A stretch of DNA of 64,000 nt from Akkermansia muciniphila (GTDB lineage Bacteria > Pseudomonadota > Gammaproteobacteria > Burkholderiales > Burkholderiaceae_C): positions 248,001-312,000 of the forward strand of contig CALQKH020000002.1 in the NCBI GenBank assembly GCA_943331105.2, read 5' to 3'. Below, piece after piece: positions 26,887-35,292 of the stretch; position 1 is the stretch's first letter, and every line of letters begins with the position of its first letter. The position numbers and the translations under genes are program-made. The notes below the pieces were generated by a model, which saw only the letters and a program-made list of their open reading frames with translations, did not search any database and was not told the DNA's origin.

Positions 26887-27474
26887 TCAGTAAACGGTGC
26901 AGGCCTGCTCAAAAGACAATCGTGGATGACGCGGGAAAAGCTTGCTGCTGTCGCCATAGCCCAAATTGATCAAGAAATTGGCTGTGAATCGGCCATCTGG
27001 GAAGAATTCGGCATTCACCTTGGCCAAGTCTACGCCGCTCATTGGACCGCAATCGAGTCCCAAAGCACGTGCGGCAATCATGAAATAAGCGCCGCTCAAA
27101 GTGCCATTGCGTGATGCAGTCCCTTGGGCCATTGCCGCATTGCCTTCAAACAATGCTTTGGCATTCGGATTGCTCGGAAAAACAAAGGGCATGTGCTCAA
27201 AGAACTGGCTGTCGGTTGCCACAATCACACACACCGGTGCCGATTGGGTTTTGACCACATTGCCCGGACTCAAAGCGGGCATGAGTCTTTGCTTGGCCGC
27301 ATCGCTGGTCAGAAACACGTAACGCGCAGGCTGCGAGTTCATGGATGTCGCCCCCATCTTGGCGATGTCGTAGATCTCCTGCAACAAGGCCGCGGGCACA
27401 GGTTTGTCTAAAAAACCATTGGCCGTGCGGGCGTCCAAGAACAGCTGCTGGAGAGAGGCATTGTCAATTTTCAT
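26887..27474 (-). CDS. RutE-like malonic semialdehyde reductase / nitroreductase-family protein
   Basis: A 195-residue flavin oxidoreductase of the RutE type. It has ARTANGFLDKPVPAALLQEIYD near the N-terminus, ATSMNSQPARYVF near 43 in the FMN-binding region and ALGLDCGPMSGVD near 138. RutE reduces malonic semialdehyde to 3-hydroxypropionate in pyrimidine breakdown; the other rut genes are not here, so the real substrate is open. The start at 27474 lies 29 bases after the stop of the Bug gene upstream. Confidence 0.8.
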   Translation of the reverse strand: MKIDNASLQQLFLDARTANGFLDKPVPAALLQEIYDIAKMGATSMNSQPARYVFLTSDAAKQRLMPALSPGNVVKTQSAPVCVIVATDSQFFEHMPFVFPSNPNAKALFEGNAAMAQGTASRNGTLSGAYFMIAARALGLDCGPMSGVDLAKVNAEFFPDGRFTANFLINLGYGDSSKLFPRHPRLSFEQACTVY

Positions 27475-27503: not shown

Positions 27504-28511
27504 TTATTCTGCCTTGATGCCGATGTCGCGAACCAATTTGGACCAGCGCTCGACATCTCTGCGAACCAAAGCCCGCGTCTGATCGGCGTTCAGGCTCAGT
27601 GGCTTGCCACCCGCTTTGCGAAAAGTTTCTTGTAAATCGGGCTGTGCAATCACCTTGGCCAGTTCGTTGCGCAAGCGGTCTTGAATGTCCATCGGTGTCC
27701 TTTTGGGCACGAAATAACCAAACCAAGACTCCAAGTCCAGGTTAGCAACACCACTTTCCACAACGGTGGGAACATCTGGGTGCATGGGATTGCGCTCAGC
27801 ACCCGAGACGGCCAAGGCCTTCACACTGCCAGCGTTCACGTGCACACGGGCCGTGGACGATAAATCAAAGAAAAGGTCAACGCGACCACCTAATAAATCC
27901 AAATACGCGGCCTGCGCGCCCCGATACGGAACGTGCACAAGGTCAGTGCCGGCCAAATGCCACAAAGCCGCTGGCAGCACATGCTGGCCCGATCCGACAC
28001 CCGCTGAAGCGTAAGACAATTTGCCAGGATTGGCTTTGGCGAATGCAACGAGGTCTTTGAGCGAATTGAGAGGGAGGTCCTTGCGCGCCATGAGCGTGTA
28101 GCTGTAACTCACGGCCAGGCCGACCGGCTCAAAGTCGCGCAAACTGTCGTAAGACAATTTGTCGTACAAGCCCATGTTGAGCGCAATATTGGAGACCGAA
28201 CCCACCAAAATCGAATAACCATCCGGATCGGCTTTGGCCGCCGCGTCCGTACCCACCAGCGTGCCCGAACCAGACCTGTTTTCGACCACGATACTCTGTC
28301 CCAGCGATTTGGACAACCGCTCGGCCAACGCACGCGCGACAAAGTCAAAACCACCGCCTGGTGGCTGAGGAACGATCACCTTCAAGGGGCGGTTAGGGTA
28401 TCCCCCTTGCGCCCAAACACCAGGCGTCAAGCCCAACATGCCCATGGCTGGCAGTGCCCGCAAGATGCCACGACGATCCGCGTTCACCCCAAAAATTTGT
28501 TCTTTGTTCAT
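27504..28511 (-). CDS. Bug-family solute-binding protein (TTT type), copy 1
   Basis: A 335-residue periplasmic binding protein of the tripartite tricarboxylate transporter type. An N-terminal export signal lies at about residues 1-35 (DRRGILRALPAMGMLGLTPGVWA). The mature start YPNRPLKVIVPQPPGGGFD and GTLVGTDAAAKADPDGY are family hallmarks. The ATG at 28511 follows a CAAGGAGAC ribosome site. It is the last gene of the YciI-Dabb-SnoaL-Bug arm and probably binds that pathway's carboxylate substrate. No TctA or TctB gene is nearby. Confidence 0.88.
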   Translation of the reverse strand: MNKEQIFGVNADRRGILRALPAMGMLGLTPGVWAQGGYPNRPLKVIVPQPPGGGFDFVARALAERLSKSLGQSIVVENRSGSGTLVGTDAAAKADPDGYSILVGSVSNIALNMGLYDKLSYDSLRDFEPVGLAVSYSYTLMARKDLPLNSLKDLVAFAKANPGKLSYASAGVGSGQHVLPAALWHLAGTDLVHVPYRGAQAAYLDLLGGRVDLFFDLSSTARVHVNAGSVKALAVSGAERNPMHPDVPTVVESGVANLDLESWFGYFVPKRTPMDIQDRLRNELAKVIAQPDLQETFRKAGGKPLSLNADQTRALVRRDVERWSKLVRDIGIKAE

Positions 28512-28546
28512 CCGTGTCTCCTTGAGAAAAGTGTGCCTCAATGTGC

Positions 28547-29164
28547 TCAGCGCTCTAGGGCACCACCGGCCAACCAGCGTGCGCCACGTCGGTAGAGTTC
28601 TTCGACCACAGGCCCTTTGAGCATGGGCATGTCCATCTTGACCGTATAACCAATCCGCGTTTGTATATACGCCAAATGGCGATAACCCTCTGGGAAGGTC
28701 GCCAGCGCGGCAGTATCCAACTTCAACACGGCTGTCGAGTCCACGGGGTCGATGCGGTCTTTTTCATAGATGGGCTGACGGTGCAGCAGCTTCCATTCAC
28801 CCTCGTGACGGATGACAAAATCGTAAAAACGACCTGTGCACACCACATCGCACAATACAGGGCCGTTTTCGCCCTCCACCATACCCCGCTGAGAGATGGT
28901 CATTTTGGTCTGGGCTATGGCACGGTCACCCACCACTTCGATGGCAGAACCGCCCAAAAAATGCAAGATGCTGACCCCTTTGGCCCAACCCTCTTGCGTC
29001 ACACGGATGAACTCACGGAAGGGCCCCTGAAACCAGGTGGCCATCATCACGCCTTCGGGATGCCAAACCGTTGCGAAACGATCCCAGTCACCCGCGTCAC
29101 GCCAAACCGCCCAGCGCTCGACCATTTGACGCACCCGTAATTCGTCACTGAATGATGGGTTCAT
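28547..29164 (-). CDS. SnoaL-like (NTF2-fold) protein
   Basis: A 205-residue protein of the SnoaL_4 type. RQMVERWAVWRDAGDWDRFATVWHPEGVM at the N-terminus and FYDFVIRHEGEWKLLHRQPIYEKDRI near 115-140 are typical of the fold, found in cyclases, hydratases and small subunits of ring-hydroxylating enzymes. It has an extra C-terminal 60 residues. Upstream is Dabb, downstream Bug copy 1, on one transcript. Its place in a catabolic cluster suggests a role as hydratase or isomerase, but the reaction is unknown. Confidence 0.78.
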   Translation of the reverse strand: MNPSFSDELRVRQMVERWAVWRDAGDWDRFATVWHPEGVMMATWFQGPFREFIRVTQEGWAKGVSILHFLGGSAIEVVGDRAIAQTKMTISQRGMVEGENGPVLCDVVCTGRFYDFVIRHEGEWKLLHRQPIYEKDRIDPVDSTAVLKLDTAALATFPEGYRHLAYIQTRIGYTVKMDMPMLKGPVVEELYRRGARWLAGGALER

Positions 29165-29182
29165 GCTTTATCTCCTGAAAAA

Positions 29183-29485
29183 TCAATGGGGGGTGTAATC
29201 CACTTGGAAACGGGAAGTTCGCAAATTTGCCACCTCCTCCTTCACGCGCAGGTGCTCTGGGTGACTGGCGTACGCGTTCAAAGCGTCCTGGGTGTCAAAC
29301 TCTGTGTACAAAACCACGTCGCAGGCATAGTCAATGCGGCTGGTGTCAATGCCCAACTCAAGGTGCAATAGACCCGGGATTTGGCCCCGTAAGCTTTCGA
29401 AACTGCTTTTCAACTGCGCGATGGACGTCGCTTTTTCTGCTTCAGATGTGCCTCGTACATGCCACATCACAATGTGTTTGATCAT
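29183..29485 (-). CDS. Dabb (stress-responsive alpha/beta barrel) protein
   Basis: A 100-residue dimeric alpha/beta-barrel protein. MIKHIVMWHVRG at the start, LGIDTSRIDYACDVVLYTEFDTQDALNAY near 45-75 and YASHPEHLRV are family hallmarks. The HPEH histidine is usual. Relatives include olivetolic acid cyclase and stress-induced proteins. It sits 12 bases from the YciI gene and 18 from the SnoaL gene, within the divergent cluster. Confidence 0.82.
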   Translation of the reverse strand: MIKHIVMWHVRGTSEAEKATSIAQLKSSFESLRGQIPGLLHLELGIDTSRIDYACDVVLYTEFDTQDALNAYASHPEHLRVKEEVANLRTSRFQVDYTPH

Positions 29486-29497
29486 GTCATCGCCTTT

Positions 29498-29803
29498 TTA
29501 AGTCACAGAAGGGAAGCCCGTTTTTTGAGGCCATAGGTTGACAAATGCATGGACTGCCACGCTGCCATACAAACCCGCCTGCGTGAAAGGCTCTTGATCC
29601 AACCATGCAAGGGCAGCCTCACGGTCTGGAAAGTCCATCACCAACAAGCTGCCCAACATGGTTTGGCCATCGTCCTGCATGAGCGGCCCGGCAAAAGCAA
29701 CCCGATCAGCCACAGTGGACAAATAGGCCTTGTGGGTAGGACGCAAGCGCAGACGCAACTCAGCGCTATGGGGTTTGTCCATCAGGACGAATGAGAAAAG
29801 CAT
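29498..29803 (-). CDS. YciI-family protein
   Basis: A 101-residue protein of the YciI fold (ferredoxin-like, related to muconolactone isomerase). RPTHKAYLSTVADRVAFAGPL near 22-45 and GSLLVMDFPDREAALAWLDQEPF near 50-75 match. Such proteins can be small lyases or isomerases. It is the first gene of the left arm, divergent from the intradiol dioxygenase. Confidence 0.82.
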   Translation of the reverse strand: MLFSFVLMDKPHSAELRLRLRPTHKAYLSTVADRVAFAGPLMQDDGQTMLGSLLVMDFPDREAALAWLDQEPFTQAGLYGSVAVHAFVNLWPQKTGFPSVT

Positions 29804-30113
29804 TATTTGAGTTTTGACATCGAATCACCAAATTTTTGCATGGGCAAACTCCGCAAGGAGTCGTGTACAAGACACCCCTCCTTTTTATTTTTGCTGATGA
29901 TGGCAAGAGGTGCATGACGAGTTCGACCCAGCCGCAAGAGGGCGACCCTGAAGCTCACAAACAGGGCGCCCAATCGGCTGTCCAAAAAAGATTCGAAAGG
30001 GCAAGCAAGCATTGAGACCATCCAATCCATTCGGGACTGATTCGATTTTCAAAAAGTCGCGCCAAACATCAAGCCCCGTTCCACTTAACAACACCATTTC
30101 ACGAAAGACTTCC
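29804..30113. promoter_or_regulatory. Divergent promoter region of the dioxygenase cluster
   Basis: This 310-base gap separates the two arms of the cluster. It holds a TTGACA at 29814-29819 on the plus strand and a terminator-like hairpin at 29855-29892. The remainder has no convincing gene. No regulator gene adjoins it, so the controlling protein is not known. Confidence 0.55.
29855..29892 (+). terminator. Terminator-like hairpin in the leader of the dioxygenase operon
   Basis: Outer arms AAGGAG (29855-29860) and CTCCTT (29878-29883) enclose inner arms GTGT and ACAC, followed on the plus strand by TTTATTTTT. It lies about 220 bases before the dioxygenase start. It could be an attenuator, or a terminator blocking read-through into the operon. 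Confidence 0.5.
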
Positions 30114-31007
30114 ATGGCAAATCCAGAGACGCACGACATCGCGCAGGCAGTTATTGACAGAATGGCTGATAGCCAAGACCCCCGGTTCAAAGCCGTGATG
30201 ACGTCACTGGTCAAACATGTTCATGCTTTTCTTGAAGAAATGCAGATCACACCCGAAGAGTGGATGAATACCATCGAGTTTTTGACCGCCACGGGCAAAA
30301 TGTGCGATGAAAAAAGGCAAGAGTTCATTTTGCTGTCCGACACCTTGGGCATATCCATGGCGGTGGTGGCCATCGCGCAAGCCAAAGGGTCGGCATCTCT
30401 CAAACACAACCCACCCCAACTGGCGCCCACAGAAGCCACCGTGCTCGGCCCATTCTTTTGGGAGGGCGCGCCTGAGTTGCCCTTGGGCTCAGACATCCGG
30501 GGCAGCAGTTCTGGCACACCCGCTCTGTACTGCGGCCGCGTCACCGATACCGCAGGTCAACCCATTGCCCATTGCACTTTGGATGTTTGGTCTGGGGATT
30601 CTGATGGTTTTTACGATTTGCAAAAAGGCGCTGAAGCCCCGATGGAGCTTCGAGCACGATTTCACACCGACGCTCAAGGGCAGTACAGTTTTTGGTCGAT
30701 CAGGCCCACTTGCTACCCGGTGCCGGACGATGGTCCGGTTGGCGTGATGCTCCGGAAAATGGGCAGACACCCATTCCGTCCCGGACACATGCACACGATG
30801 CTCAGCGCAGCAGGACATGAAACCTTGATCACCCACTTGTTTGTGGCAGATAGCCCTTACCTCGAATCCGATGCCGTATTTGGCGTGCGCAACAGTTTGA
30901 TTGTTCCGTTTCAAGCGCACCCAGCTGGTACCGCGCCTGATGGCACCCAGATGTCTGAGCCTTACCACGTGGCCCAATTTGATTTCGCCTTGGTGCCCAC
31001 CGTTTAA
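30114..31007 (+). CDS. Intradiol ring-cleavage dioxygenase, hydroxyquinol 1,2-dioxygenase-like
   Basis: A 297-residue Fe(III) dioxygenase. A helical Dioxygenase_N domain lies at about 10-100 and the catalytic beta-barrel follows (VLGPFFWEGAPEL near 110). The metal ligands are visible: Tyr in GFYDLQ, Tyr in TCYPVPDDGPVG, and two His in RPGHMHTML. GFYDLQ resembles the GFYDVQ of hydroxyquinol enzymes. It should open a catechol or trihydroxybenzene ring between two adjacent hydroxyls. It heads an operon with the citryl-CoA-lyase-like, CoA-transferase and Bug genes. No maleylacetate reductase gene is present. Confidence 0.87.
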   Translation: MANPETHDIAQAVIDRMADSQDPRFKAVMTSLVKHVHAFLEEMQITPEEWMNTIEFLTATGKMCDEKRQEFILLSDTLGISMAVVAIAQAKGSASLKHNPPQLAPTEATVLGPFFWEGAPELPLGSDIRGSSSGTPALYCGRVTDTAGQPIAHCTLDVWSGDSDGFYDLQKGAEAPMELRARFHTDAQGQYSFWSIRPTCYPVPDDGPVGVMLRKMGRHPFRPGHMHTMLSAAGHETLITHLFVADSPYLESDAVFGVRNSLIVPFQAHPAGTAPDGTQMSEPYHVAQFDFALVPTV

Positions 31008-31036
31008 ATCGTCAACCCACTTACCGGAGTGTTATC

Positions 31037-31840
31037 GTGAAAATTGGCAAAGCCACCGTTCCAAGATCGGCGATCTGTACGTCAAACCAAGACACGATCG
31101 TCGTGCGCGGCGCAGACTTGGCGCGCGATCTGATTGGGCACATCAATTTTGGGGATTATTTCTTCCTGCTTTTGACTGGCAAGCGTGCCGACAGCGCCAC
31201 CAGTGCCGTCCTCAACGCCACCTTGGTCGCGATTGCAGAGCATGGTTTGGTGCCCAGCGTTCAAGCCGCACGGATGACACTGGCTGCAGCACCCGACGCC
31301 ATGCAAGGCGCTGTTGCAGCGGGTCTGCTGGGATCGGGCTCGGTCATATTGGGTGCATCAGAAACTGCTGGGCGACTTTACTTGGCCATTGAAAAGGAGT
31401 CAGCCAATCATGGTGGCGATCTGAGAGCAGCAGCTCGGGTTGTTCTGAGCGATCTGCGTGCACGCAAGTTACCCATCGCTGGCTATGGGCACCCCGAACA
31501 CAAAAGCCAAGACCCTCGCGTTGGACGTCTCTTTGAAGTCTCTGCACAAGCGGGTGGTGGTCAAAAATACATTGAAATGGCCAAAATGGTCGAGGACCTG
31601 ATGCCTGAGGTCGTCGGCAAACCACTCAAGCTGAATGTGTCTGGCGCCATACCGGCCGTGTTGCTGGGCGTCGGCTTTCCAGTCAATGCACTGAAGGGTG
31701 TTCCCATGTTGGCACGCACGGCCAGTTTGATCGCCCATTTGAACGAAGAGATGGAGGACAGCATTGGTTTTGCGCTGTCTTACCAAGCCACTCGCGAGCA
31801 GGAATACACTGGCGAGATGCCTTTGGGTGACGACGCATGA
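31037..31840 (+). CDS. Citryl-CoA lyase / citrate-synthase-like protein
   Basis: A 267-residue short citrate-synthase-fold protein. The histidines matching citrate synthase His274 and His320 appear in ANHGGD near 117 and GYGHPEHKSQDPR near 155. The position of the catalytic Asp375 seems replaced: LNVSGAIPAVLL near 197 has Ser. Such stand-alone domains are annotated citryl-CoA lyase but are not proven to act on citryl-CoA. The GTG start at 31037 follows an ACCGGAG site. The stop overlaps the CoA-transferase start by 4 bases, suggesting they act in sequence: CoA activation, then C-C cleavage. Confidence 0.8.
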   Translation: MKIGKATVPRSAICTSNQDTIVVRGADLARDLIGHINFGDYFFLLLTGKRADSATSAVLNATLVAIAEHGLVPSVQAARMTLAAAPDAMQGAVAAGLLGSGSVILGASETAGRLYLAIEKESANHGGDLRAAARVVLSDLRARKLPIAGYGHPEHKSQDPRVGRLFEVSAQAGGGQKYIEMAKMVEDLMPEVVGKPLKLNVSGAIPAVLLGVGFPVNALKGVPMLARTASLIAHLNEEMEDSIGFALSYQATREQEYTGEMPLGDDA

Positions 31841-33015
31841 CCCAAGTTCTCGCAGACCTCAAAGTGGTCGAGCATGGCACCTTCATCACTGGTCCGGCAG
31901 CTTCTATGCTTTTGGCAGATTTGGGCGCAGATGTCGTGAAGGTGGAGCTGCCTGGAACAGGCGACCCATTTCGCGCCTTCAAGGGTGAGCTTTACAGCCC
32001 ACACTTTCAGACCTACAACCGAAACAAGCGCAGCATCACCCTCAACACCAAAGACAAAGCCGACTTGGCAAAATTCGATGCGCTGATTGCCGAAGCCGAT
32101 GTTTACATCCAAAATTTTCGGCCTGGCTTTGCGGAGCTAATTGGCGCTGGACATGAGCGTCTTCGCGCCATCAATCCCCGACTCATCTATTGCGCCATCA
32201 GTGGGTTTGGCCCTACTGGACCGTATGCCAAACGTCCCAGTTACGACACGGTGGCTCAAGCCGTCAGTGGTTTTTTAGGCTTGCTGATCAATCCAGCAGA
32301 TCCACGCGTCGTAGGCCCTGCTATGGCCGATTCTCTTACAGGTTTTTATGCGGCTTATGGCGTGCTGGGGGCGCTGTATGAACGCAATACCACCGGCCAA
32401 GGTCGGCTGGTAGAGGTCTCCATGATGGAGGCCATGACCCATTTCAACTTGGATGCATTCACACATCTCTTTTCGGCACAAGAGGTCATGGGCCCTTTTA
32501 GCCGCCCCAATGTGTCGCAGTCGTATGTCATGTGTTGCAGCGATGGCCTGTGGCTGGCTTTGCACATGTCTTCGCCACCCAAGTTCTGGGAGGGTCTGGC
32601 CAATGCTATGGAAAGAGAAGATATTTTCCAAGACCCCCGATTCTCAAGCCGTCAAGCGCGCATTGATCACCAGCAAGATCTGATGCTGGTGCTCAGAGAT
32701 ATTTTCAAACTTCGCACGCGAGCAGATTGGTGCGCGCGTTTGGTGGCACAAGACGTACCCCATGCCCCCATGTACACCACCGAGGAAGTCCCCCACGATT
32801 CACAAGCACAACATCTGGAGCTTTTTGTGGAAGCGCCTCACCCTACCAGTGGTGTTTTTAAGACTGTGCGATCACCCGTTTCCTTTGACGGCAAAAGGTC
32901 TTTAGACGTCACCGCCCCCCCTCTGTTGGGTCAGCACAACGATGAATTCAATGCAGGTTGGCCCGTACGCAAAGGTCTGGCAAGGTTGGCGGCCAATGAC
33001 CACCAACTTCCCTGA
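31837..33015 (+). CDS. Class III CoA-transferase (CaiB/BaiF family)
   Basis: A 392-residue enzyme that moves CoA between carboxylates. LKVVEHGTFITGPAASMLLADLGADVVKVE at the N-terminus is diagnostic. The likely catalytic Asp is in MADSLTGFYAAYG near 168. YNRNKRSITLNTK near 65 and FSRPNVSQSYVM near 220 also fit. It is coupled to the citryl-CoA-lyase-like gene and followed by Bug copy 2. The likely substrate is the open-chain acid made by the dioxygenase, by inference from context. Confidence 0.88.
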   Translation: MTQVLADLKVVEHGTFITGPAASMLLADLGADVVKVELPGTGDPFRAFKGELYSPHFQTYNRNKRSITLNTKDKADLAKFDALIAEADVYIQNFRPGFAELIGAGHERLRAINPRLIYCAISGFGPTGPYAKRPSYDTVAQAVSGFLGLLINPADPRVVGPAMADSLTGFYAAYGVLGALYERNTTGQGRLVEVSMMEAMTHFNLDAFTHLFSAQEVMGPFSRPNVSQSYVMCCSDGLWLALHMSSPPKFWEGLANAMEREDIFQDPRFSSRQARIDHQQDLMLVLRDIFKLRTRADWCARLVAQDVPHAPMYTTEEVPHDSQAQHLELFVEAPHPTSGVFKTVRSPVSFDGKRSLDVTAPPLLGQHNDEFNAGWPVRKGLARLAANDHQLP

Positions 33016-33065
33016 TAAATCAGCATCAATTTGTTTTCTCCCTCCCTCACACATAAGGAAATGAC

Positions 33066-34052
33066 ATGCGCTTCTCAAGAAGAACCCTGGCAAAAATAAC
33101 GACTCTTGGTGCTTTGCTGACATTGGCCAATGTCACTCAAGCCCAAACCGCCGCTCCAGCAGACTGGCCCAACAAAGCCATTCGAATCGTGGTCGGATTT
33201 CCACCAGGAACGGCACCAGACGTCTTTGCCCGCATGTACGGTGACCAGGTATCCAAGAAGCTCGGGGTTCCCGTTGTGATCGACAACAAACCAGGTGCTG
33301 CCACCAACTTGGCAACCGATCTCGTTGCCAAAGCACCGAGCGATGGCTACACCGTTTTGTACGGCTTATCGACCGCATTCACCCTCAACCCATTCATCTA
33401 TTCGAAACTGCCTTTTGATCCCGCCAAGGACTTGGTGCCTGTGGCCACCACCATGGTTCAAGGCTTGGTGTTGATCACCAATCCCAAGTTTCCAGCCAAC
33501 AACATTCGCGAACTGGCCGCTGCAGCGCGGGCCAAGCCTGGCGCGATTTCACATGCATCCTACGGTGCGGGCAGCCCATCGCACATGATTGCCGAGTGGT
33601 TCAAAGATGAAGCCAAAATCGACATGCTCCATGTGCCCTACCGCACACCGCCCATGACCGATTTAATTGGCGGACAGGTCGATACATTGATGGAGCCCAT
33701 CTCCACGGCAGTGCCCATGATTGCTGGTGGCCGTGCCAAAGCACTGGCTTATTCGGGAGCAACGCGCCATCCATCCTTGCCAGATGTGCCCACATTTGCT
33801 GAAATTTACCCAGGACTGACAGTGATGTCGTGGCACGGCATCTGGGCACCTTCTGGCGTTCCCATACCCATTGTTAACCGGTTACACACAGCATTTGTGG
33901 AAGTGACGAGAGATCCAGAGATGCAAAAACGCATCAAGGATTTGAACGTAGAGCCGCTGGGTATCTCCAGAAGCGAAATGTCCGCGTTGGTTCGTCGCGA
34001 TGCCGAGATTTTCAGCAAGATCGCCAAAGCCAAGAACATCACCTTGGACTGA
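33066..34052 (+). CDS. Bug-family solute-binding protein (TTT type), copy 2
   Basis: A 328-residue periplasmic protein. A signal peptide at about 1-26 ends in NVTQAQT. WPNKAIRIVVGFPPGTAPDVFAR, DNKPGAATNLATDLVAKAPSDGY and LPDVPTFAEIYPG are family blocks. It is 50 bases after the CoA-transferase gene and closes the right arm; its own terminator follows. It probably presents the pathway's substrate to an uptake system elsewhere in the genome. Confidence 0.88.
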   Translation: MRFSRRTLAKITTLGALLTLANVTQAQTAAPADWPNKAIRIVVGFPPGTAPDVFARMYGDQVSKKLGVPVVIDNKPGAATNLATDLVAKAPSDGYTVLYGLSTAFTLNPFIYSKLPFDPAKDLVPVATTMVQGLVLITNPKFPANNIRELAAAARAKPGAISHASYGAGSPSHMIAEWFKDEAKIDMLHVPYRTPPMTDLIGGQVDTLMEPISTAVPMIAGGRAKALAYSGATRHPSLPDVPTFAEIYPGLTVMSWHGIWAPSGVPIPIVNRLHTAFVEVTRDPEMQKRIKDLNVEPLGISRSEMSALVRRDAEIFSKIAKAKNITLD

Positions 34053-34157: not shown

Positions 34158-35144
34158 TCAAGAATCGGCACGGAAACCCAGTGCTCTGACCAATCGGCCA
34201 GAGAACTCGGTATCGGCCTTCATGCGTTCGGCAAACTGTTCCTGCGTGGTGGGCGTCACTTGGACAGCCAAAGGCGCCACGGCTTCAGCCACATCCGGCT
34301 GAGACAGTGCGGCACGCAGCAAGTTGGAAGCGCGGTCACGTATGGCAGCAGGGGCCGTGGCGGGCAAGAAGAAGCCAAACCATTCGCGCATGACCAGTTC
34401 ATCAAAACCCTGCTCCCGGTAAGTGGCCACATTGGGGACAAAGGTGGACCGAGTGGGGCCCGATGTGGCCAAAATGCGTGCACGACCTGTGGCGTGGTGC
34501 TGAATCCAGTCGCCCAAAGGCGAGGACATCGAGGTGATTTGCCCACCCAGAAGCTGAGGTACGCCAGGGCCGGAGCCGGCGAAGGGCACGTTCAAGGATT
34601 GGATGTCGGCAATTTGGGCAAAACGCCCTGCCAACAAATGTGGCATGGAGCCAGCACCCGGGTTACCCACCGTGGCTTTGCCAGGGTTGGCTTTGGCCCA
34701 AGCCACGTACTGGCGCAAATTCGTCACTTCAGCAGGCACGGCTGGGCCCACCACGAAGGCATGGTCGGTGGCGTGACCAATGCTGATGGGCGCGACATCG
34801 GCCTGCGAGTAAGGCAGCTTGGAATAAGAGTGAGGGTACACAGTCAACATGGACGCAGGCGTGTACAACATCGTTGCACCGTCGCCTGCTGCGGCTTTCA
34901 AGGTGGACACGCCAATTTGGCCACCCGCCCCTGGGCGGTTTTCAATGATGATGTTGGTGGCATAGACACCGCGCAGCTTCTCACCGATGCGACGCGCGAA
35001 CGCGTCGGTGGTTCCACCCGGTGGAAAGCCCACCACAATCCTCAAAGTCTCTGGAATGGCTTGCGCGAAGGCAGGCAAGTTCCCCAAGCCTAAAGCAGCA
35101 ACAGCACTGGCGCCCTGAATCAGGGTTTGACGACGGGTTTTCAT
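34158..35144 (-). CDS. Bug-family solute-binding protein (TTT type), copy 3
   Basis: A 328-residue periplasmic protein with a twin-Arg-like signal at 1-28 (RRQTLIQGASAVAALG). LRIVVGFPPGGTTDAFARR and NRPGAGGQIGVSTLKAAAGDG are family blocks. The ATG at 35144 follows an AGGAGTC ribosome site. It stands alone, convergent with copy 2. Whether it serves the same pathway is not clear. Confidence 0.87.
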   Translation of the reverse strand: MKTRRQTLIQGASAVAALGLGNLPAFAQAIPETLRIVVGFPPGGTTDAFARRIGEKLRGVYATNIIIENRPGAGGQIGVSTLKAAAGDGATMLYTPASMLTVYPHSYSKLPYSQADVAPISIGHATDHAFVVGPAVPAEVTNLRQYVAWAKANPGKATVGNPGAGSMPHLLAGRFAQIADIQSLNVPFAGSGPGVPQLLGGQITSMSSPLGDWIQHHATGRARILATSGPTRSTFVPNVATYREQGFDELVMREWFGFFLPATAPAAIRDRASNLLRAALSQPDVAEAVAPLAVQVTPTTQEQFAERMKADTEFSGRLVRALGFRADS

Positions 35145-35292
35145 GTTTGACTCCTGGTTTTTGATGTTGAAGGTGAAAACCAATCCATCGTAAGCGAGCA
35201 AGTTCAATCAACCAAATGAAATCAAGGCGAATCCTTACATTTCATAAGCATTTGATGCAAAAATAAAACACAAGGATACGGCCTTCAAGGCC

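Follow-up and report, generated by a model that had tools for sequence, protein, structure and literature searches.

How might a bacterium complete the breakdown of a trihydroxylated aromatic ring when it lacks maleylacetate reductase? This question is raised by a gene cluster in a 64,000-nucleotide stretch (the window, G000:C2:248001-312000) of a Burkholderiales genome with a completeness of 99.93%. In one arm of the cluster, an intradiol dioxygenase gene is followed by genes for a citrate-synthase-fold relative of citryl-coenzyme A (CoA) lyases, here called CCL, a class III CoA-transferase and a Bug-type binding protein; a second arm of small proteins runs divergently. We tentatively read the locus, at somewhat short of an even chance, as encoding a lower pathway that degrades a trihydroxylated aromatic without maleylacetate reductase and in which CCL splits a CoA ester.

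Conserved linkage of dioxygenase, CCL and CoA-transferase

An open reading frame check and profile searches placed the genes listed by an initial annotation of the window at the coordinates and in the families it gave; the list omitted a nitroreductase-like gene and was incomplete to that extent. The best start of the dioxygenase is the ATG at 30114, and the CoA-transferase gene overlaps the upstream CCL gene by 4 bases. All genes of the cluster are intact and the residues checked are kept.

To survey relatives, genome contigs were scanned with a six-row CCL alignment; 301 relatives were found and the best 80 loci kept, of which 61 reached 5 kb or more to each side of CCL and were testable. 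Partner genes within 5 kb of CCL were counted by tblastn. A CoA-activating gene was present at all 61 testable loci (60 CoA-transferases and one AMP-ligase) and a ring-cleavage dioxygenase at 46, a linkage far beyond chance; at 44 loci the dioxygenase lay on the same strand and at most 300 bases from CCL. Bug genes (53/61) and LysR genes (50/61) were also frequent, and RutE-like (23/61), Dabb (22/61), SnoaL (19/61) and YciI (15/61) genes less so. Among the 80 loci, 43 had the order dioxygenase-CCL-CoA-transferase and 14 the order CoA-transferase-dioxygenase-CCL, consecutively on one strand. The initial annotation had treated the dioxygenase, CoA-transferase and lyase-like genes as one set, and this survey, which could have separated them, found them conserved together.

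Loci found through CCL cannot reveal the frequency of such dioxygenases in its absence. We therefore made an independent dioxygenase search of 300 Burkholderiales genomes, 48 of which matched, and inspected flanks of about 1.5 kb for 30 matches. Both dioxygenases of the window's clade in this set (those of the window and of G171) adjoin CCL. CCL itself is uncommon: it was present in 32 of the 399 Burkholderiales genomes searched at E 1e-50, a count that includes Thr-type paralogues, and in 12 of the 398 Pseudomonadota genomes searched at E 1e-60.

The absence of maleylacetate reductase, previously noted for the cluster, extends to the whole genome. The best match there, 32% identical along a portion of the query, reads as a generic iron-containing alcohol dehydrogenase (L151) and was rejected as a reductase candidate. 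At E 1e-100 or better the reductase was absent from 11 of 14 CCL genomes, the window's included, with G049 and G204 as positive controls. The query is presumably a maleylacetate reductase; against NCBIfam it matched only iron-containing alcohol dehydrogenase models, below cut-off, and the 25 best plasmid relatives listed for it comprise 10 maleylacetate reductases, 2 putative alcohol dehydrogenases and 13 unannotated proteins. Muconolactone isomerase (PF02426) had no match in the window genome and was positive in 2 of 14 controls. The enolase-superfamily profile PF13378, which is not specific to muconate cycloisomerase, gave 11 matches, 9 above cut-off; given these several copies, a muconate-cycloisomerase-like enzyme may be encoded elsewhere in the genome.

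Altered residues in CCL and the dioxygenase

The likeness of CCL to citryl-CoA lyase holds for profile score, far above the NF004868 cut-off, and for fold: an AlphaFold2 (AF2) model (pLDDT 76.8, pTM 0.74) has 6hxp as its best match in the PDB, which confirms the fold only. With citryl-CoA lyase and the corresponding module of ATP-citrate lyase (6hxp, ACLY) CCL also shares length and the GYGH and DPR motifs. A true citryl-CoA-lyase reaction, in contrast, is weakened by the active site. In citrate synthase H274, H320 and D375 participate in catalysis, according to a figure legend in PMC5518231. CCL residues were compared by alignment to 6hxp and Chlorobium ATP-citrate lyase, across 123 CCL rows that include three copies of the window's gene and in which G171 and one Bordetella locus occur twice. 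The Asp of the LNVD motif, kept in both references, is Ser202 in the window protein, Ser in 99 rows and Thr in 24, and Asp in none; a true citryl-CoA lyase was rejected on this basis. All 123 rows have Ile, Phe or Val at the His274-type position, and His155, where 6hxp has Tyr, is invariant. H69, H152 (the GxGH His), R161 and R227 are likewise invariant.

We take these last four to be substrate-side residues of the citrate-synthase fold, H152 to be equivalent to citrate synthase H320, and the LNVD Asp to be equivalent to citrate synthase D375 and ACLY D1026, hence presumably the residue mutated as D541 or D1026 in ATP-citrate lyase structures. On this comparison CCL retains the fold as well as the side that binds the acid, but lacks the known set of catalytic residues. 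PDB titles describe ATP-citrate lyase D541A with citryl-CoA (6znw) and human D1026A mutants with substrates (7rig) or products. Unlike 6hxp and ACLY, CCL stands in an aromatic-catabolic context. Because a CoA-activating gene neighbours it at every testable locus, a CoA ester, as in citryl-CoA lyase, is its likely substrate.

A second clade of proteins named citryl-CoA lyase (L122-L145; 24 rows, 31-41% identical) has Thr at the catalytic Asp position, and Bug or AMP-ligase genes adjoin it in several loci.

The dioxygenase, the single PF00775 member of the window genome, belongs to the hydroxyquinol 1,2-dioxygenase type, with 1tmx as a solved relative. Among the 113 rows of a maximum-likelihood tree, all 62 intradiol dioxygenases that lie no more than 1.6 kb from a CCL gene (CCL-linked) formed one clade (support 100/96); identical sequences, those of 240 residues or fewer and the L148 dioxygenase were left out. 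A FastTree analysis with 66 CCL-linked rows (62 distinct), which also omitted L110_374, gave the same clade (0.991). The characterised enzymes 1tmx, 3n9t and 8r2x share the wider family and fall outside the clade, although their long branches make their placement unsure. Two intradiol enzymes near CCL are also outside it: that of G447 and that of Cupriavidus pBB2 (L148). The latter, very divergent at 27% identity, is separated from its CCL by about 1.7 kb that include an AMP-ligase gene, and it is absent from the tree.

The four iron ligands (two Tyr, two His) are conserved in all 66 CCL-linked rows. The clade carries the pocket signature RPGH, in which Gly precedes the first ligand His in 66/66 rows, where 46 of 50 others have Ala. 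The Phe of VFGPF is replaced by Gln, Leu or Glu, Leu also occurring in 14 of the 50 others, and the residue after the second ligand His is mostly Met or Thr. A Leu/Asp pair, which we take from 1tmx to select for hydroxyquinol, is kept in 66/66. Dioxygenases of YciI operons and those linked to maleylacetate reductase lie outside the clade and mostly resemble PnpC (3n9t) at the pocket positions.

The divergent arm and other partners of CCL

Features of the cluster are collected in Table 1. The two arms diverge, as the initial annotation stated, and run in the same direction in relatives. Left-arm genes are separated by 5 to 29 bases, and the RutE/nitroreductase-like gene begins 29 bases beyond the left Bug gene. 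The full left arm (YCII-Dabb-SnoaL-Bug-RutE) lies upstream of CCL in the window's order at 17 of the 80 loci; because the RutE-like gene is the last of the arm in these 17, we count it as a member. No LysR regulator was found among the ten window genes scanned, and no consensus promoter in the divergent intergenic region. A third Bug/TctC gene lies directly after the cluster in convergent orientation.

Table 1. Features of the cluster and its borders, with window coordinates, strand and supporting matches.
Feature	Position	Strand	Evidence
RutE/nitroreductase-like FMN enzyme	26887..27474	-	NF003768 272.6 bits vs cut-off 152; PF00881
Bug/TctC periplasmic binding protein 1	27504..28541	-	PF03401 E 5.8e-67
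SnoaL_4 protein, AGDC1/PPP2-like	28547..29164	-	PDB 7jmr E 2.2e-26, 6w54 E 1.2e-22
Dabb ferredoxin-like protein	29183..29485	-	PF07876 E 8.9e-24; 3fmb E 6.8e-11
YciI-family protein (YCII)	29498..29803	-	PF03795; 4lbh E 2.2e-7, 1mwq 2.6e-7
Divergent intergenic region	29804..30113	.	between left and right arms
Intradiol dioxygenase, CCL-linked clade	30114..31007	+	PF00775/PF04444; 1tmx E 6.4e-75
CCL, citrate-synthase fold	31037..31840	+	NF004868 313.9 bits vs cut-off 193
Class III (CaiB/BaiF) CoA-transferase	31837..33015	+	PF02515 E 3.7e-100
Bug/TctC periplasmic binding protein 2	33066..34052	+	PF03401
Third Bug/TctC protein, convergent, cluster membership uncertain	34158..35207	-	PF03401

The SnoaL_4 protein matches PPP2 and the gallate decarboxylase AGDC1 over nearly its full length. 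AGDC1 and PPP2 are cofactor-free gallate/protocatechuate decarboxylases, and ten AGDC1 active-site positions could be taken from the part of PMC7862292 used here. SnoaL keeps eight of them: H68 and D23 correspond to the His86-Asp40 dyad, W18 and W44 to the Trp35/Trp61 clamp, R22 to Arg39, T43 to Thr60 and Q168 to Gln192, and the Tyr150 position is also kept. It differs at the potassium-site Glu88, which is Leu70, and at Tyr146, which is Arg, and it is bacterial and operon-borne. All 33 bacterial rows, the window's and its copies included, are identical at the ten positions and so carry this Leu and Arg. The same part of PMC7862292 describes the AGDC1 E88A mutant as dead and lactic-bacterial homologues named earlier as seeming to lack the catalytic His. 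Because two of the ten positions differ, one of them lethal when mutated in AGDC1, we describe SnoaL as resembling, and predicted to work like, an AGDC1-type decarboxylase rather than as one. The Arg at the Tyr146 position may point to a substrate with a second acid group.

The nearest solved structure to the YciI protein, judged by overall similarity, is the YciI-family dehydrochlorinase TftG (4lbh), scarcely ahead of HI0828 (1mwq). The profile matched by the RutE-like gene is that of malonic semialdehyde reductase; we consider a quinone-type reductase the probable function. RutE-like genes adjoin intradiol dioxygenases also where no CCL is nearby, and at loci without CCL, YciI (L209), SnoaL (L199) and RutE-like (L211, L213) genes accompany dioxygenase-reductase modules. 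In many relatives a second, classical-looking dioxygenase heads the YciI operon. Chlorophenol routes, in the portion of PMC3975901 drawn on here, include TftG, a hydroxybenzoquinone reductase and the nitroreductase-like tcpB, and pass maleylacetate to maleylacetate reductase. It had been suggested that the small left-arm proteins hydrate or isomerise the cleavage product. We dropped these roles, as the nearest solved relatives and the gene neighbours in hydroxyquinol modules point upstream; on the same grounds the left-arm genes probably act before ring cleavage, in degradation of the hydroxyquinol type.

CCL with CoA activation also stands beside other oxygenase-type genes: beside LigB/LigA-like genes in Aminobacter, Sinorhizobium, Martelella and G668, beside the G447 intradiol enzyme outside the clade, and near VOC proteins in the Alcanivorax-type L086 and several other Pseudomonadota genomes. 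VOC proteins belong to the glyoxalase/dioxygenase superfamily and are candidate dioxygenases only. The one LigB partner scanned, that of L146, is matched best by class III extradiol models and third by gallate dioxygenase, all below cut-offs. Aconitase-type LeuC adjoins CCL in L033, L099, L170 and L232; LeuD accompanies it in all of these but L170, for which LeuC alone was called. The common factor across these loci is CCL with CoA activation. In the CoA-transferase Asp165, which we take to be the catalytic Asp of class III enzymes, is invariant in 86/86 rows.

A Burkholderia glumae plasmid operon (L033:8104-15633) encodes a CCL-clade dioxygenase, CCL, an MhpA-type hydroxylase, a CoA-transferase, LeuC, LeuD and a TIM-barrel isomerase, and may be the pathway in its most complete form. 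A MetE-C-like protein recurs near CCL (L035:6974-7999, L115:7025-8050, L234:5564-6595), with PF01717 in L115 and an annotation as uroporphyrinogen decarboxylase family in L035; it possibly serves a demethylating step for methoxylated aromatics.

The window genome itself encodes, on contig C15, an MhpA-type hydroxylase 72% identical to one in a Polaromonas cluster and of a kind found upstream in some relatives; it could supply the third hydroxyl. Its aconitase-type genes include LeuC/LeuD copies unlinked to the cluster (L240, L241), and such a hydratase could act on a maleate-like product. On contig C6, L240:6803-11574 holds a LeuC/LeuD-type hydratase with two Bug genes and what we presume to be an RraA-like gene. 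Maleate isomerase (PF17645) matched neither the window genome nor any control and was thus uninformative.

A proposed CoA-dependent route and its rivals

We infer every reaction, substrate and product in the route below from what was observed, namely gene content, conserved linkage, the dioxygenase clade, the residue changes and the missing reductase. SnoaL would decarboxylate a hydroxybenzoate-type acid, and the MhpA-type enzyme encoded outside the cluster would probably hydroxylate the product. The YciI and nitroreductase-like proteins would keep the easily oxidised triol reduced or strip a substituent from it. The intradiol dioxygenase would convert the triol to a maleylacetate-like 3-oxo dicarboxylate, and the CoA-transferase would form its CoA ester. 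CCL, with Ser202 for Asp and the added His155, would then split the carbon chain of the thioester without NADH. In the plain case of hydroxyquinol, maleylacetyl-CoA would yield acetyl-CoA and maleate or fumarate, and LeuC/LeuD beside CCL in some relatives could hydrate a maleate-like product. The CCL step would resemble a thioester version of the fumarylacetoacetate cleavage of homogentisate degradation. An NADH-free cleavage by CCL would account for both the missing reductase and the LeuC/LeuD partners. CoA activation of the cleavage product followed by CCL acting on the thioester, as first proposed, is the natural reading of linked genes in a genome without maleylacetate reductase.

Several points weigh against this route. 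Maleylacetate reductase is present in 3 of the 14 CCL genomes (G171, G325, G668) and in the CCL-bearing G180, outside the 14 (L211). At 4 of the 61 loci it lies within 5 kb of CCL, and at 9 more it occurs in another part of the retrieved sequence, 13/61 in all; in Bordetella L082 (also numbered L153) it is the second gene downstream of CCL. A recognised dioxygenase is absent within 5 kb at 15 of the 61, nine of these being Bordetella/Achromobacter loci with CoA-transferase-CCL-Bug and four carrying a VOC protein instead. Outside the 61, neither a CoA-activating gene nor a dioxygenase was recognised at an Agrobacterium plasmid CCL (L034), and no CoA-activating gene between CCL and LigB in Neorhizobium L147. 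Carbon-carbon cleavage is not implied by homology, because the residue that cleaves in citryl-CoA lyases is missing. The substrate may be other than hydroxyquinol, because the dioxygenase pocket differs and many relatives carry a second, classical-looking hydroxyquinol dioxygenase. The route leaves both the altered pocket and a carbon protonation without Asp unexplained.

The Bordetella locus (L153:7426-11613) comprises CoA-transferase, CCL, Bug and maleylacetate reductase with no dioxygenase, and may represent a hybrid 3-oxoadipate route.

The altered pocket of the clade would suit a gallate- or pyrogallol-like substrate, with an extra carboxylate or another hydroxyl pattern, whose cleavage product, once hydrated, would be a citrate-like tertiary alcohol from which CCL, in a cut of the citryl-CoA type, would release acetyl-CoA and a keto acid. 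The likeness of SnoaL to gallate decarboxylase, the third-ranked gallate dioxygenase match of the L146 LigB partner, the LeuC/LeuD-type hydratase genes adjoining CCL in some loci and the retained arginines, presumably the acid-binding ones of citrate synthase, point the same way. We nevertheless judge this substrate unlikely: the presumed hydroxyquinol-selecting Leu/Asp pair is kept throughout the clade, the window cluster has no hydratase gene, and CCL has lost the Asp of citryl-CoA lyase. That same loss, together with the missing His274-type residue, the new invariant His155 and the Asp-to-Ala ATP-citrate lyase structures with citryl-CoA or substrates, would also fit a CCL that breaks no carbon-carbon bond and acts on the CoA ester as a hydrolase, hydratase or isomerase, with general thiolases and beta-oxidation completing the route. 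This, too, we regard as doubtful, as the fold and substrate-side residues are still those of carbon-carbon lyases and synthases and the ten window genes scanned include no thiolase.

It is improbable, in our judgement, that CoA-transferase, CCL and Bug degrade an imported carboxylic acid in a pathway of their own, with the dioxygenase hitch-hiking. Loci without a recognised dioxygenase and the frequency of Bug genes favour such a separation; the directly linked intradiol dioxygenases nevertheless form a single clade, both clade members from the CCL-independent survey are linked, other ring-cleavage-type genes stand at CCL elsewhere, and the three window genes are tightly packed. Very improbable is a decayed, non-functional hydroxyquinol cluster that has lost a second dioxygenase, the reductase and a LysR gene: many relatives do have these three alongside, and the window genome lacks that second dioxygenase and the reductase, but its genes are intact with the checked residues kept, and the right arm alone is common elsewhere.

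Among described systems, the tft/tcp hydroxyquinol pathway, as covered by the part of PMC3975901 used here, shares a hydroxyquinol-type intradiol dioxygenase, a nitroreductase-like gene and a TftG-like YciI protein with our locus. Here, in contrast, the cluster and genome lack maleylacetate reductase, a CoA-transferase and CCL are present, and the dioxygenase belongs to its own clade. Itaconate and citramalate degradation proceed by CoA transfer and then a carbon-carbon lyase acting on the CoA ester; our locus differs in having a ring-cleavage dioxygenase and a citrate-synthase-fold protein instead of a CitE-type lyase. The initial annotation knew of no described pathway with this gene set, and our search of the open-access literature, which did not extend to subscription papers, found none. 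The arrangement is real, conserved and apparently undescribed. The reading given by the initial annotation is partly supported: its core idea of a CoA-dependent route after ring cleavage stands, and its idea for the left arm is not supported. With more doubt than assurance, we consider that it may extend to an undescribed lower pathway of Pseudomonadota in which several kinds of oxygenase feed ring cleavage, CoA activation and splitting by a Ser/Thr+His CCL family, without maleylacetate reductase.

If this is true, a group of proteins named citryl-CoA lyase, with the catalytic Asp in 0 of the 123 rows compared here, is misnamed, and at least the CCL branch studied here belongs to aromatic degradation. 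Bacteria such as Polaromonas, Ramlibacter and Hydrogenophaga would then have a means of finishing trihydroxybenzene breakdown without maleylacetate reductase. The SnoaL protein is a candidate cofactor-free aromatic decarboxylase from bacteria, and CCL offers a clean test of how citrate-synthase chemistry may be rebuilt without its aspartate.

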